Shown here one piece after another: positions 1,077-11,053 of a DNA stretch of 43,387 nucleotides (positions within the stretch are counted from its first letter, which is position 1; every line of letters begins with the position of its first letter). This DNA comes from a virus, in the IMG/VR virus record IMGVR_UViG_3300023116_000094, positions 1 to 43,387 of that record; one strand, given 5' to 3'. The translations under genes and the position numbers were made by a program. The notes under the pieces were generated by a model, which saw only the letters and a program-made list of their open reading frames with translations, searched no databases and was not told the DNA's origin.

Positions 1077-1464
1077 CGGGCACTCCGTAATATTCAAGTA
1101 CGGTCATGAACGCACGAACCTGGTCAACAAGATAATTCACATCTTTAACCGGATCACTGTCGTACCAAGCAAGACCTTCACCGTTACTGCGCTCTTCAAT
1201 GCTTTGCTCAAATGACGCAATCGCATTTTTTAATTCTTGAATAACGATGGCATCGACCTGTTCGTCTTCAAGTTCGATCATCACTTTCTGCATTTCTTTT
1301 TTCCTCAGAGTCCAAGACCCATTACCATTGTCTATCCATTCGATATCGTCGCCTTCTTTCCAGCCAAGCAACTCCATCTCTTCGTCAGGAAAGATCAGAT
1401 ATTGACCATCTGAATCTTCCTGCACATCAAGCGTATAGCTACGAGCGGTATCTGGTATTTGCAT
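1051..1464 (-). CDS. AbrB/SpoVT-like domain protein with helical tail (137 aa)
   Basis: Residues about 22-54 (L-I-F-P-D-E-E-M-E-L-L-G-W-K-E-G-D, then W-T-L-R-K) have the look of a swapped-hairpin AbrB/SpoVT DNA-binding domain: hydrophobic strand, short helix ending in G-W-x-x-G-D, then two strands. Residues 57-137 are an acidic helical region that could pass as a separate small protein beginning at an internal Met. This suggests a fusion of two small phage proteins. The ATG at 1464 has AGGA 8 bases upstream and lies 26 bases inside the dehydrogenase gene. A regulator or antitoxin-like role is only inferred. Confidence 0.6.
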   Translation of the reverse strand: MQIPDTARSYTLDVQEDSDGQYLIFPDEEMELLGWKEGDDIEWIDNGNGSWTLRKKEMQKVMIELEDEQVDAIVIQELKNAIASFEQSIEERSNGEGLAWYDSDPVKDVNYLVDQVRAFMTVLEYYGVPGEDFNRKV

Positions 1465-2212
1465 CGATAGTATCCTTTAAGAACTGCACATCAGCACCCG
1501 CTTCTTCACCAAACTTCATGAACGCAGACATGTCTTTCGGAAAACAGTGTCCGCCATAACCAAACATTCCATCAGGACCAGGAACAGCAGTGTGCGAGCG
1601 ACCGACACGTGGATCAAGGCAGAGACCATCGATCACAACGTCGAAGTCTTGACCGCCACATGCTTGAAAAATCTCATAAGCCTGATTAAAGAACGTCACT
1701 TTGGTTGCAAGGAAGCAATTCAAAAAGTACTTTGCAAACGAGGCTTGTTCAGCAGTCATGTATCGCACGTTCTTCAGATTAGGCAAGACGGGTGCGAATA
1801 TCTCGTGCCACCAGCGCATAGAACCGCCACCATAGATCGCAAACTCAGAGTCGATAAACTCTTGCGTCGGATCTGAACCAGTTGTGCCACGCAGATACTC
1901 AGGGCTGAACGTGATGTCCAGATGATCAAACTCACGCAGAAAAACGGGATTCGTGGTCGACTTGATCAGGTACTTAGTGTCACGATACTTATTGAAAACA
2001 TCAACGATGTTATCAGTATAACATGAACCGTCTTCGCCCATGGGCGTAGCAACACAGACAACAACACCATCAACAGTGTCAACCATGTCGAATGGAAAAT
2101 TAGAACCCTTAGCGGGATCATCAAAGAACAGGTCAATGTCTGGATGATTTGCTAGGGCAGTACCAACAGCAGTACCAACAGGACCTAGACCAGTAACAAC
2201 GATGCGTGGCAT
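1439..2212 (-). CDS. UDP-glucose/GDP-mannose 6-dehydrogenase family, short form (257 aa)
   Basis: The family oxidises a nucleotide sugar to the uronic acid with two NAD+ per turnover, in the cytoplasm. The N-terminus has the Rossmann motif G-L-G-P-V-G (residues 8-13). K161-Y-F-L-N165 and G-G-H-C223-F-P-K-D (residues 220-227) match the catalytic Lys, Asn and Cys signatures. The protein stops about 30 residues after the Cys. It lacks the C-terminal UDP-binding domain of cellular enzymes, which are usually about 390-430 residues. The start ATG 2212 has GGAG six bases upstream. All three named catalytic residues are kept, so it may be active or act with a host enzyme. Probable role: supplying or altering surface-polysaccharide precursors. 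A divergent paralogue lies at 8554-9507. Confidence 0.9.
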   Translation of the reverse strand: MPRIVVTGLGPVGTAVGTALANHPDIDLFFDDPAKGSNFPFDMVDTVDGVVVCVATPMGEDGSCYTDNIVDVFNKYRDTKYLIKSTTNPVFLREFDHLDITFSPEYLRGTTGSDPTQEFIDSEFAIYGGGSMRWWHEIFAPVLPNLKNVRYMTAEQASFAKYFLNCFLATKVTFFNQAYEIFQACGGQDFDVVIDGLCLDPRVGRSHTAVPGPDGMFGYGGHCFPKDMSAFMKFGEEAGADVQFLKDTIDANTRYRS

Positions 2213-7194: not shown

Positions 7195-7501
7195 CGTCGG
7201 GATTGCCTAATTGTAAACTACCGGTTTGCGCCGCTTCTTCAAGAACAGACGCAAGAACTTCTGCGGCTCGATCTTGAAGGGCTACGTTCGCTTCTGTCAA
7301 TTCAGTATCAGGTGTTGATACTATCATAAAATTAAAGTTTAAGCAATCATTTTCTCCGTCGAAAGCAATGTTTCCAAAACGCAATACAGTCTCAGTAAAC
7401 TCACCCTTGATGATACGAATATCCCAAGACTGATCGCGCTCATCGTCTGTAGCAGGAATCAACTGATAGTCAATTCCTTCTCGTGCTACTCCAATACCCA
7501 T
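7178..7501 (-). CDS. Hypothetical protein between uvsX and 41 (107 aa)
   Basis: It occupies the place of T4 gene 40, but I see no clear sequence likeness to gp40, so no symbol is given. The middle is beta-rich (V-L-R-F-G-N-I-A-F-D-G, N-F-N-F-M-I-V). A helix and an acidic tail (D-D-D-S-E-D) follow. The ATG at 7501 shares one base with the uvsX stop; the preceding GTG is a weaker alternative. Its tail overlaps the gene 41 start. Confidence 0.65.
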   Translation of the reverse strand: MGIGVAREGIDYQLIPATDDERDQSWDIRIIKGEFTETVLRFGNIAFDGENDCLNFNFMIVSTPDTELTEANVALQDRAAEVLASVLEEAAQTGSLQLGNPDDDSED

Positions 7502-8550
7502 CACTCAACTTCCATTTCTAGATCAAGTTCAATCGATGCACCAGCACCAATCTTGTATTGCTTTTCAATGAACGACTGGAAGTCTTCGTCTTCTAATAGT
7601 CCTTCCCAGAAAGAATGCGCGAGCGTGTCTTTCTCTCTGACCTTTCCGCCAACCAGTTGTCCAGTAGCTTTATCAACCAGTTGATACCAGCCGTTACTAG
7701 GCTTAATAACAAAACCACCAGCAAGAGCAACATCCAGAAGACCACTATAAGGCTCAATCCCACCTTCCCAAGAAACTCGGATAGGAATCTTTGACTTCTC
7801 TTTAACAAATCGAGACTTTTCGACGTTGATAATAAAGTCATAACCAGTTACCTCAGTGCCAGTTTTGTTCTGCCGACGACCGAGAATCCAGATGTTATCA
7901 GCAGAGTAGTAGATACCGGTACCACCGCCAACAATATCTTTCGGAAACAAACCAATCTCTTTGTACGTATGATTGATTGCAAGAAGAGGAATGTTCTTCA
8001 TCGTCAGATAAGGAGTTGTCATTCTGAACAAGCCCTTGAGTGCTTTCGCACGTGACATATCAGCCACAGACTTTTCGTTGATTGCATCCTCAAGTTCTTT
8101 CTTAGATGCTAGGTTACCAATAGAGTCAATCACCACAATAACTTTATCGGCTTTGTCCAGATTCTCAAGCTGGTTGATCAGATCAAACTTCAGTTCTTCG
8201 ACATTGGTGATAGGCGTGTGGAGCACACGATTCACATCAATACCAAACGTTTCAAAGTAAGACTGAGGCGAACCAAACTCAGAATCATAGAACAGCATTA
8301 CTGCATCTGGATCAGACTTCAAAAACTCAGCCGCCATCTTTAGTGCAAACGAAGTTTTAAAGTGCTTAGATGGACCAGCGAGAACAGTAAGTCCTGACGC
8401 CAGTCCACCCTTCAGACTACCAGACAGAGCGACATTCAACATAGGAACGTCGAGGGTTGTAATCTCACGCTCTTGAAAAAACTCAGACTCAGACAGCACA
8501 GCCGTGTGTGCGACTTTAGAGTTTTTCTTCAGCTTGTTCATTACTGACAT
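7501..8550 (-). CDS. uvsX: UvsX RecA-like recombinase (349 aa)
   Basis: Strand-exchange protein that coats single-stranded DNA for recombination-dependent replication and repair. It has Walker A G-P-S-K-H-F-K-T (residues 59-66), the T4 UvsX form of the motif. A Walker B I-V-V-I-D-S-I-G follows near residue 140, then the I-N-H-T-Y segment. The size agrees with T4 UvsX (391) less part of its C-terminus. The ATG at 8550 has AAGGA eight bases upstream. Mediator UvsY is encoded at 24540-24983. Confidence 0.95.
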   Translation of the reverse strand: MSVMNKLKKNSKVAHTAVLSESEFFQEREITTLDVPMLNVALSGSLKGGLASGLTVLAGPSKHFKTSFALKMAAEFLKSDPDAVMLFYDSEFGSPQSYFETFGIDVNRVLHTPITNVEELKFDLINQLENLDKADKVIVVIDSIGNLASKKELEDAINEKSVADMSRAKALKGLFRMTTPYLTMKNIPLLAINHTYKEIGLFPKDIVGGGTGIYYSADNIWILGRRQNKTGTEVTGYDFIINVEKSRFVKEKSKIPIRVSWEGGIEPYSGLLDVALAGGFVIKPSNGWYQLVDKATGQLVGGKVREKDTLAHSFWEGLLEDEDFQSFIEKQYKIGAGASIELDLEMEVE

Positions 8551-8553
8551 ATA

Positions 8554-9507
8554 TTAGTCCTTCAGATTTTTAAAGTTAATGCACTCATCAATTAGCGGTA
8601 GTTTGTCAGACAGACCCGCAAGTGCGCGTACATCGTGATTCAAGAATTCACCAGCATACCCACGGGCTTGCTTGTAACTAATCGAATCGTCAGTCTTCGC
8701 ACGAACGAACGTAGGAACCATGACACTCTTGTCAGTAATGTCAGGTGCATTCTCCATCAAACGTCGAACGATTGTTGGATTCGCATTCTTAACATCAAGA
8801 ATGGTATCATACAACTGATTAAAGAAAGTCTGCTTGACTGCTTTGAAGCCCGCAAGACCTAGTTTAGCATAAATTACTTCCCAAATGCTACCAACAGCAA
8901 CTTGTGCGGCTGAGAAATGGCTCGCGTGTTGCAGAAGTTGCATTAATGCTTGCCGAGGCTTTTCTTCGCCACCAACTATATGATAGTCAGAGACTAAAAT
9001 TTCACCCATGTTTGTTGCATCACTCATCTCAGGGAAGTAACAAACTTTTGCGCTAAAGACATCATAGCCCAGAGTCGCAATCAACCGCTGAGTTGTTTCG
9101 ATGTTTAGCGTTGATCGAATGCAGATGGCACACTCGGTTTGCTTAAACAATTTGTTTACAGCGTTTAGAAAATCCGCGTCATCGAACGTATCGTTTTTCA
9201 TCAAAGGAATTTCTTCACAGATGAATACGATAGTAGGTCGCGACTCAATCAGAGCATCAACGTCATTAAACGATTCTGCTCTTACAAACTCAGATGCTTT
9301 GGTATTGAAAGCAACAGCAGTTGCATCAGCAAGCATATTGCTACCAATAATGCCCGCTTTCATCGTCTGAAGACCAGCTTCCTCTTGACCAATAGGCGGT
9401 GATTGAGGATGCTCCCAGCCTTCTTCATCTACTCGTACAACAGTTCCATCGGCTGCCACTTGAGGTTCGCTCAGTTTTGGCGCGATTTCAGTTACATTAT
9501 CACTCAT
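8554..9507 (-). CDS. Catalytically degenerate UDP-glucose dehydrogenase-like protein (317 aa)
   Basis: A roughly 50-residue acidic leader precedes a Rossmann-like start (G-I-I-G-S-N, residues 52-57). From there the protein aligns with the dehydrogenase at 1439-2212: S-T-L-N for S-T-T-N, K215-L-G-L-A219 for K161-Y-F-L-N165, T-F-F-N-Q identical, and G-Y-A-G-E-F288-L-N-H-D for G-Y-G-G-H-C223-F-P-K-D. Catalytic Asn is Ala and catalytic Cys is Phe, so dehydrogenase chemistry looks lost. It lies between the primase-like gene and uvsX, which suggests a structural or regulatory role there. The ATG at 9507 has GGAG six bases upstream. Confidence 0.75.
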   Translation of the reverse strand: MSDNVTEIAPKLSEPQVAADGTVVRVDEEGWEHPQSPPIGQEEAGLQTMKAGIIGSNMLADATAVAFNTKASEFVRAESFNDVDALIESRPTIVFICEEIPLMKNDTFDDADFLNAVNKLFKQTECAICIRSTLNIETTQRLIATLGYDVFSAKVCYFPEMSDATNMGEILVSDYHIVGGEEKPRQALMQLLQHASHFSAAQVAVGSIWEVIYAKLGLAGFKAVKQTFFNQLYDTILDVKNANPTIVRRLMENAPDITDKSVMVPTFVRAKTDDSISYKQARGYAGEFLNHDVRALAGLSDKLPLIDECINFKNLKD

Positions 9508-9516
9508 TATTTGCTC

Positions 9517-10440
9517 CTAGTTGTTGCGATAGGCATATTCAACTGCTCTATCAGCTTCTTTCTCTAGTGGTCGATTAGTATACCACATTCCATTCTCATT
9601 GTCAAATTGTCTACAAAGTTCTGCGATTTGCTTTGCAGAAATAGGATAACCATTCTTGATGGCATTGCCTGCTGTAGCAACCATGATCTGATACATCTTG
9701 TGATACCATCCGGTACTCGTTATTGTTTGATACTGCATAGAAAGTTTCTTTGGCCAAAACGGGCAATCACGATAGCTGGACCAAGAAACGTTGGTGTTAT
9801 CTAGTGCTTGCTTACGATGCTCAAGCACTGCTTTTTGCAACTCGGGCGGCAGACGATCTAAAAAGTTTTTGCCTTCTTTCTCTTTGTATGGATGTTTAGC
9901 CTTTAAGTAGTCTGGATCAATAGGGTCGCCGTGATTAGAAAACATAAAATTATGAGCGTCGAAATACTGAGCAGGAACGTAGTACATACGACTAAGATCC
10001 TTTGTCTGAGCATCGCCGATCTCACCAAGTTCTGTGTTGAGGGCATGCCAGAAATGTCGGATCTCATCTCGCTCGACGTTTCGTGTAAGTTCAAATACAA
10101 GTCGGAATTTAGGTGTATCGACTGTACTACTTGCAGTAGAATAACACACAAAGTTCCAATGCCCATACCTACTATGAAGCTCATTTGTTAGTGGCTCCTC
10201 AAAAGTGACATCATCAACATCGACAGCCGCCCAGCGACCCCAGTACTCAACGTTGTCATTTGATCTTGTTGTACCTTCAGTATAAATTGCAGGACTAATC
10301 AGCGAAGCAGTTTTCTTCGACTCGGGTATGCTAGACAAACCAGACAGCAACTCAGTAAACTCATGCCAATTATTCATGGTCATTCGTTTATGAGTCTTAT
10401 TGTCATAACGATTTTTAAACAGCGTCAGTTCTAGTTTCAT
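9517..10440 (-). CDS. Primase-like protein of the archaeo-eukaryotic primase type (307 aa)
   Basis: Residues 71-77 read A-A-V-D-V-D-D, a hydrophobic strand ending in D-x-D like AEP motif I. Residues 100-118 (Y-S-T-A-S-S, then P-K-F-R-L-V-F-E-L) match the S-x-S...P-x-x-R pattern of RepB-like and prim-pol proteins. D143-A-Q-T-K-D-L-S-R with M-Y-Y-V-P fits the third acidic motif. The C-terminal 100 residues are helical. T4 uses the unrelated DnaG-like gp61; none is in this window. The ATG at 10440 lacks a ribosome-binding site and lies 6 bases from a consensus -10. The family call is by pattern only. Confidence 0.6.
   Translation of the reverse strand: MKLELTLFKNRYDNKTHKRMTMNNWHEFTELLSGLSSIPESKKTASLISPAIYTEGTTRSNDNVEYWGRWAAVDVDDVTFEEPLTNELHSRYGHWNFVCYSTASSTVDTPKFRLVFELTRNVERDEIRHFWHALNTELGEIGDAQTKDLSRMYYVPAQYFDAHNFMFSNHGDPIDPDYLKAKHPYKEKEGKNFLDRLPPELQKAVLEHRKQALDNTNVSWSSYRDCPFWPKKLSMQYQTITSTGWYHKMYQIMVATAGNAIKNGYPISAKQIAELCRQFDNENGMWYTNRPLEKEADRAVEYAYRNN
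9577..9605 (-). promoter_or_regulatory. Internal sigma70-like promoter, extended -10
   Basis: Read leftward: TTGACA (9600-9605), 17-base spacer, TATACT (9577-9582) with an upstream TGG making an extended -10. It lies inside the 3' end of the primase-like gene, about 70 bases before the degenerate dehydrogenase ATG, and could boost that gene, uvsX and 41. Being inside coding sequence, it may be chance. Confidence 0.5.
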
Positions 10441-10446
10441 TCAGAA

Positions 10447-10476
10447 ATTATAACAGATTAAGTTGTGGGCTGTCAA
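10447..10476 (-). promoter_or_regulatory. Consensus sigma70 promoter, leaderless, for the primase-like operon
   Basis: Read leftward: TTGACA (10471-10476), 18-base spacer, TATAAT (10447-10452) with TGT before it. Six bases separate the -10 from the ATG at 10440, so the transcript should begin at or next to the start codon. The TATAAT also contains the TAA stop of the methyltransferase gene. It would serve the primase-like gene, the degenerate dehydrogenase, uvsX and 41. Confidence 0.8.
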
Positions 10477-11053
10477 CCTTTACCAATGCCAATTGATTCA
10501 TCTTACGTCTACCCTTGAACGTTTGCTCGTAGTAGAACTTTTTTATCAACTTTAGTTCGTGATGGTCTGCGAATGCATCGCGAACAGGAACCAACTCAAA
10601 GTTATCGATCAACATAGCTTTAATGCCGAGATCAATGCACATAGTCATATCATGTGAAGCCGCAGGATAAGTGTGACCGCCATCGATTAGTGCGAAGTCG
10701 TAATCGTAGATAGAAATTTCGTCTATCATTTGATGTGCTTTGCCAGGAATCCATCGCCACTTATTTCGATACATCTTCGATAGTTTTATAGCGGCAAGCC
10801 ATCGTGCCGCAGGATTGATTCTATCGTCTACTTTGCCGTTTCGATCTTCGTAAGGCGAGCAAGAAATCATCTTTTCAAGGTCTTTGTATATCTCAAGTTG
10901 ATATGTGGTCGAATGACCAAGATGAAAACCGATCTCTAAAACTCGCTTCGGCTTGAAGAGTTTTTGTGCCCACTCAAACGCTCTAAACACATCATCAGTC
11001 GGTGGCATGTAACCCCATCCTATATCAGGAAAAGATAAGTGTTCTAGATTCAT
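10448..11053 (-). CDS. Class I SAM-dependent methyltransferase-like protein (201 aa)
   Basis: Residues 38-49 read [12 protein letters not shown], methyltransferase motif I. A later [11 protein letters not shown] segment is typical of the Methyltransf_24 group (small-molecule or sugar methylation). The substrate is unknown. The ATG at 11053 overlaps the TGA of gene 43 (ATGA), so it is translationally coupled to DNA polymerase. Its stop codon forms part of the next promoter's -10 box. Confidence 0.8.

Follow-up and report, generated by a model that had tools for sequence, protein, structure and literature searches.

A catalytically impaired UDP-glucose dehydrogenase homologue encoded beside uvsX in uncultured marine T4-like viruses

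UDP-glucose dehydrogenases (UGDs; TIGR03026, Pfam PF03721/PF00984, structures 1dli and 7kws) contain a Rossmann domain, a central helical domain, and a C-terminal UDP-binding domain with Lys320. The residues invariant in NDP-sugar dehydrogenases have been described in Streptococcus (S.) pyogenes numbering, which is followed here, and include the catalytic Cys260 and Asn208; helix alpha-9 contributes to the UGD dimer (PMC4794789). A close viral counterpart of the gene studied here is an intact UGD of phage C48C1 (OQ984149.1, 36267-37226), which lies directly before uvsX, has a nucleotide-sugar epimerase gene upstream, and retains all catalytic and NAD-binding residues. C48C1 also encodes a NodU-type carbamoyltransferase (95704-97221) and an annotated glycosyltransferase (100670-101350), which possibly perform later steps on the sugar made by the epimerase and UGD pair. 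The T4-like phages RB49 and Synechococcus phage ACG-2014a have just one small gene between gp43 and uvsX.

The window analyzed here is a viral DNA stretch of 43,387 nucleotides (IMG/VR record IMGVR_UViG_3300023116_000094). It contained an uninterrupted open reading frame of 317 amino acids on the minus strand (8554-9507), which occupies the same place before uvsX as the C48C1 enzyme and encodes a UGD-fold pseudoenzyme, as judged from profiles, predicted fold, and aligned residues; its product is hereafter called the dead protein. The upstream border of this slot is a primase-like gene (9517-10440, minus strand; PHROG_9765), and the downstream border is uvsX (7501-8550, minus strand; PHROG_97, E 1.3e-87), with gaps of 9 and 3 nt, respectively. 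An AGGAG ribosome-binding site (9514-9518, minus strand) stands 6 nt upstream of the ATG and overlaps the stop codon of the primase-like gene. The preliminary description of this DNA had reported an intact protein with a strong start between these two genes, and the coordinates agree. In the dead gene, the two final codons, AAG GAC (Lys316-Asp317; 8557-8562, minus strand), also form an AAGGA ribosome-binding site 7 nt upstream of the uvsX ATG, and AAGGAY or GAGGAT served in this position in 103 of 134 loci. Translation of the two genes is therefore probably coupled. The conservation of the C-terminal Lys-Asp was considered as a feature of the protein only, which was rejected because the ribosome-binding site accounts for at least part of it.

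Profile searches matched the dead protein to PHROG_9148 ('UDP-glucose dehydrogenase', E 3e-13) and to NCBIfam TIGR03026 (E 2.4e-8, with a score below the curated cut-off), and searches of Pfam and of PDB sequences gave no significant match. Comparison of the dead family with the intact family by hhalign gave a probability of 99.7% over 238 columns. The same genome encodes a second UGD with intact residues (1439-2212, minus strand; 257 amino acids, without the C-terminal domain), and AlphaFold2 models of the dead protein (pLDDT 76) and of this paralogue (pLDDT 80) had the same fold, and 7kws_A was the top-ranking solved structure for both (dead protein, Z 16.8 over 215 residues at 3.2 A; paralogue, Z 18.4 over 218 residues at 3.1 A). 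Residues 270-317 of the dead-protein model were poorly resolved, with low confidence in the loop 277-293. The profile matches and the fold rule out a chance resemblance and indicate that the dead protein, with its predicted two-domain fold, is a homologue of the NDP-sugar dehydrogenases by descent. The homology proposed in the preliminary description thus stands, the folds being alike and the family comparison far from random level. Its 'ungapped match' to the paralogue would not be sufficient for this, because the pairwise alignment is too weak alone (25.8 bits, 23% identity over 152 gapped columns, E 7e-4), and the claim is carried by the profiles.

Relatives were gathered from viral contigs; reduction at 85% identity left 37 representatives of the dead type and 41 of the intact type. 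All 41 intact sequences had Gly7, Gly9, Gly12, Thr83, Ser117, Pro140, Glu141, Lys204, Asn208, Cys260, and Asp264. The equivalents of Lys204, Asn219, Pro140, Gly258, and Asp264 were mostly kept in the dead proteins (33/37 for Lys204 and 34/37 for Asp264), whereas Cys260 was lost in all 37, with mostly Tyr or Phe in its place, and Asn208 in 36. In the aligned columns of the window protein, Lys215 and Asp292 correspond to the catalytic Lys and the general-base Asp, and Ala219 and Phe288 (8644-8646, minus strand) stand at the positions of the catalytic Asn208 and Cys260. These two substitutions had been recognized in the preliminary description, and the alignment extends the loss to the whole clade. 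The NAD site was equally affected. The GxGxxG motif is broken to GSNMLA (residues 55-60; 9328-9345, minus strand), with the first Gly kept in 37/37 members, the second lost in 36/37, and the third lost in 37/37. The ribose-binding Asp is lost, and so is, in most members, the equivalent of the NAD-contacting Thr83, the window protein having Ile100. Judging from these aligned residues, both catalysis and NAD binding should be lost in the dead protein. The preliminary description had overlooked the broken motif and suggested an NAD-sensing role, which the loss of the NAD-binding glycines makes unlikely and which was rejected on the loss of the motif.

The dead protein also lacks the inter-subunit Arg (Arg244 in S. 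pyogenes), which would serve the active site of the partner subunit, and it stops after the central domain. The same truncation, without the C-terminal UDP-binding domain, was observed in intact phage UGDs (257-350 amino acids), such as the window paralogue and that of contig L082 (5965-6921). An acidic leader that the UGD family does not have, already pointed out in the preliminary description, has been added at the N-terminus (residues 1-48; 9364-9507, minus strand), with a net charge of -8 in the window protein and a negative net charge in 36 of the 37 members; it was modeled with low confidence and is probably disordered. The central helix (residues 208-239; 8791-8886, minus strand), equivalent to the dimer helix alpha-9, includes Lys215, Ala219, and the kept TFFNQ, and together with the C-terminal tail it is among the best conserved parts of the family. 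Twenty columns were invariant across the 37 representatives, and Asp110, Gln226, Lys279, Glu287, and Asn314 were invariant or near-invariant only in the dead clade.

These polar residues could suggest a new function of the protein's own, in which a remodeled cleft binds another ligand or supports NAD-independent catalysis with Lys215, Asp292, the new Glu287, Lys279, and Asn290. Such a role, possible although doubtful in our estimate, agrees with the general retention of the Lys and the Asp, but the short members of the family (252-279 amino acids) alter many such residues and yet persist, and the loop 277-293 is modeled with too low a confidence for the pocket to be judged. The short sub-branch (the L254-L271 group, including L268 4925-5731, L271, L257, and L265) still occupies the slot; the conserved Lys is replaced by Arg or Tyr in several of its members, and TFFNQ is changed (QKYFDE in L268).

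Among 83 dereplicated uvsX loci, the slot held an epimerase and an intact UGD in 40 (including C48C1), the dead protein alone in 37 (including the window), a tandem of dead and intact UGD in one (lineage L013/L014/L092), and nothing in five, these counts following how the loci were sought and not representing abundances. In the uvsX tree, the viruses with an epimerase and UGD and those carrying the dead gene lay on opposite sides of one branch (SH-aLRT 99). The dead gene was conserved beside uvsX across this marine T4-like clade, with about three losses. Empty slots (contigs L250, L255, and L258-L262) arose that many times inside the dead side, two of the events being forced by well-supported branches, and the lineages concerned retain uvsX, gp41, and gp43.

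The slot UGDs, including that of C48C1, are homologous to the dead protein over most of its length and form its closest lineage. The dead proteins constituted one clade of the UGD tree (SH-aLRT 100) that joined the slot UGDs (92), which indicates, as far as aligned sequences can tell, a single origin. Attachment of the dead clade to the remote UGDs was marginally disfavored (AU p 0.044), and on the same test so was descent of the dead gene from the window paralogue, which with its relatives shares the fold and occurs in dead-carrying genomes but belongs to another UGD lineage, has every catalytic residue, and is encoded at a different genomic location. Nesting of the dead clade inside the slot UGDs is likely (p 0.082 for nesting versus a position beside them). 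With 2.4 changes per column on the long dead branch and a distant outgroup, the exact point of attachment is uncertain. The place beside uvsX was probably inherited from a metabolic gene, considering the gene content of the sister clade.

The dN/dS of the dead gene was 0.12-0.14 (about 0.13 in all pairs with measurable dS), compared with 0.08-0.11 for the intact UGD paralogue and 0.02-0.08 for uvsX, primL, and gp41. On these ratios, the dead gene is under purifying selection but is less constrained than its replication neighbors. It thus combines lost catalytic residues with a kept reading frame and purifying selection, as expected of a pseudoenzyme, and the selection, the family's own invariant residues, and the acidic leader together mark a maintained one. 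The gene could also be seen as a decaying relic of the slot UGD, retained merely as a spacer or leader for the translation of uvsX, since it supplies the uvsX ribosome-binding site and the empty slots show that some lineages have been able to lose it. This is extremely unlikely, because it is contradicted by the purifying selection in all measured pairs and by the intact frames and invariant columns of 37 divergent representatives.

The genomic position has also been taken to indicate a role in replication, and the preliminary description proposed a scaffolding part of the replisome. An accessory protein of this kind would use its acidic leader to bind UvsX, the primase-like protein, or the polymerase, serving as a scaffold without catalytic activity. 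The dead gene always has the primase-like gene and uvsX as its immediate neighbors, most loci being tightly spaced, and both the flexible acidic leader and the probable translational coupling to uvsX would suit this role. However, position was the sole argument offered for it, and the presence of an epimerase and an intact UGD in the slot of the sister clade means that adjacency to uvsX alone is no evidence for a replisome role. In addition, uvsX, primL, and gp41 all evolve more slowly than the dead gene, which is not retained everywhere its replication neighbors are, the slot being empty in about three independently derived lineages and holding other genes in the sister clade. A recombination or replication accessory therefore appears unlikely, and the case cautions that position in a replication operon is a poor guide to function.

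The distribution of intact UGDs offers another view. All five complete or near-complete genomes with a slot UGD (C48C1, 156 kb; G014-G017, 137-145 kb) had a single intact UGD and lacked a dead copy, and both near-complete dead-type genomes (G001, 155 kb; G002, 153 kb) had one dead and one intact UGD, near-completeness being judged against the 156-kb genome of C48C1. Relative to the dead gene, the intact one lay 6-8 kb downstream in the window, G003, G012, and G002, about 8 kb upstream in G019 and G026, and far away in G001; further contigs carried it 6-9 kb from the dead gene. G002 has also kept an epimerase elsewhere in the genome (59% identity). On dead-carrying contigs of 30-56 kb (G005, G006, G008, G010, and G011), which are fragments, no intact UGD was found. 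Contig G020, considered as a case of a dead gene without an intact UGD, proved uninformative, because the intact gene of its lineage lies 8 kb upstream, past the contig end.

Taken together, we tentatively favor the view that the dead protein is a maintained NDP-sugar-dehydrogenase pseudoenzyme that may, without catalysis of its own, pair with or regulate the phage UGD or a different enzyme in the nucleotide-sugar pathway. The sequences support a history in which, in an ancestor of the clade, a UGD gene between the primase-like gene and uvsX lost the catalytic Asn and Cys and the NAD-binding motif and has since been kept under purifying selection, with an intact UGD of another lineage encoded elsewhere. 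The protein would still fold as a Rossmann domain with a central helical domain and might pair through the UGD dimer helix, where its similarity to the intact enzymes is greatest. It could then act without chemistry, perhaps as a regulatory or stabilizing heterodimer partner of the truncated phage UGD, or alternatively on another enzyme of the phage sugar pathway; the acidic leader and the conserved C-terminal tail would be putative contact sites. This resembles the general concept of a pseudoenzyme subunit regulating its active paralogue, in that an inactive member of an oligomeric family is kept beside an active one; the partnership here is putative. The co-occurrence of dead and intact UGDs in two of two near-complete dead-type genomes and their tandem arrangement in one lineage count for this view, and the loss of the Arg244 equivalent and the fragments showing no intact UGD count against it. 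Contig G024 carries an intact UGD although its slot is empty, so the intact enzyme can occur without the dead protein, which therefore cannot be an obligate subunit. A new ligand site would account equally well for the residues invariant only in the dead family.

As a further alternative, the dead protein might be directed at the host, poisoning a host nucleotide-sugar dehydrogenase by pairing with it or countering a defense protein. The relatively fast evolution and repeated loss suit an accessory host-facing gene, and the dimer helix is retained, but arms-race genes seldom show one ancient origin followed by largely vertical inheritance throughout a clade, as is the case here, so that we regard such a decoy or inhibitor as quite unlikely. 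It is even more speculative, and improbable, that the once-only conversion in the ancestor of this large marine T4-like clade produced a factor that physically links sugar metabolism, possibly for DNA or capsid glycosylation, with the recombination and replication machinery. The clade-wide loss of residues, the indicated single origin, the purifying selection, and the new invariants support the more general proposal of the preliminary description that a former enzyme has been taken over for a non-catalytic role.

A tblastn search of 50,697 phage records with two dead-family members found annotated UGDs only (best identity about 24-27%), and no member was found among cultured phages. Likewise, none of the 84,980 cellular genomes that were scanned yielded a member of the family, and hence no cellular source was found among them. 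Our literature search for UGD with uvsX, phage C48C1, and inactive UGD paralogues found nothing relevant. The dead proteins add a new branch of pseudoenzymes to a known enzyme family and occur across a large set of uncultured marine T4-like viruses. It represents a clade-wide conversion of an enzyme to a pseudoenzyme in phages, and the probable ancestral state is still visible at the same address in the sister viruses, which makes the change of function directly testable.

Additional variation was observed around the slot. In the dead clade, a Methyltransf_24 protein is often encoded between gp43 and the primase-like gene (10448-11053 in the window; 33480-34364 in L153), and C48C1 has a Dam-type adenine methyltransferase there instead. 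The gp43 polymerase gene was in two pieces in L180 (5575, 7652) and L226 (4045, 6083), and uvsX was in two pieces in L201 (10841, 12728), L226 (10829, 11244), and L047 (4489, 5236), separated in L201 by a long insertion. The split uvsX genes possibly reflect an intein, an intron, a homing insertion, or an assembly frameshift.
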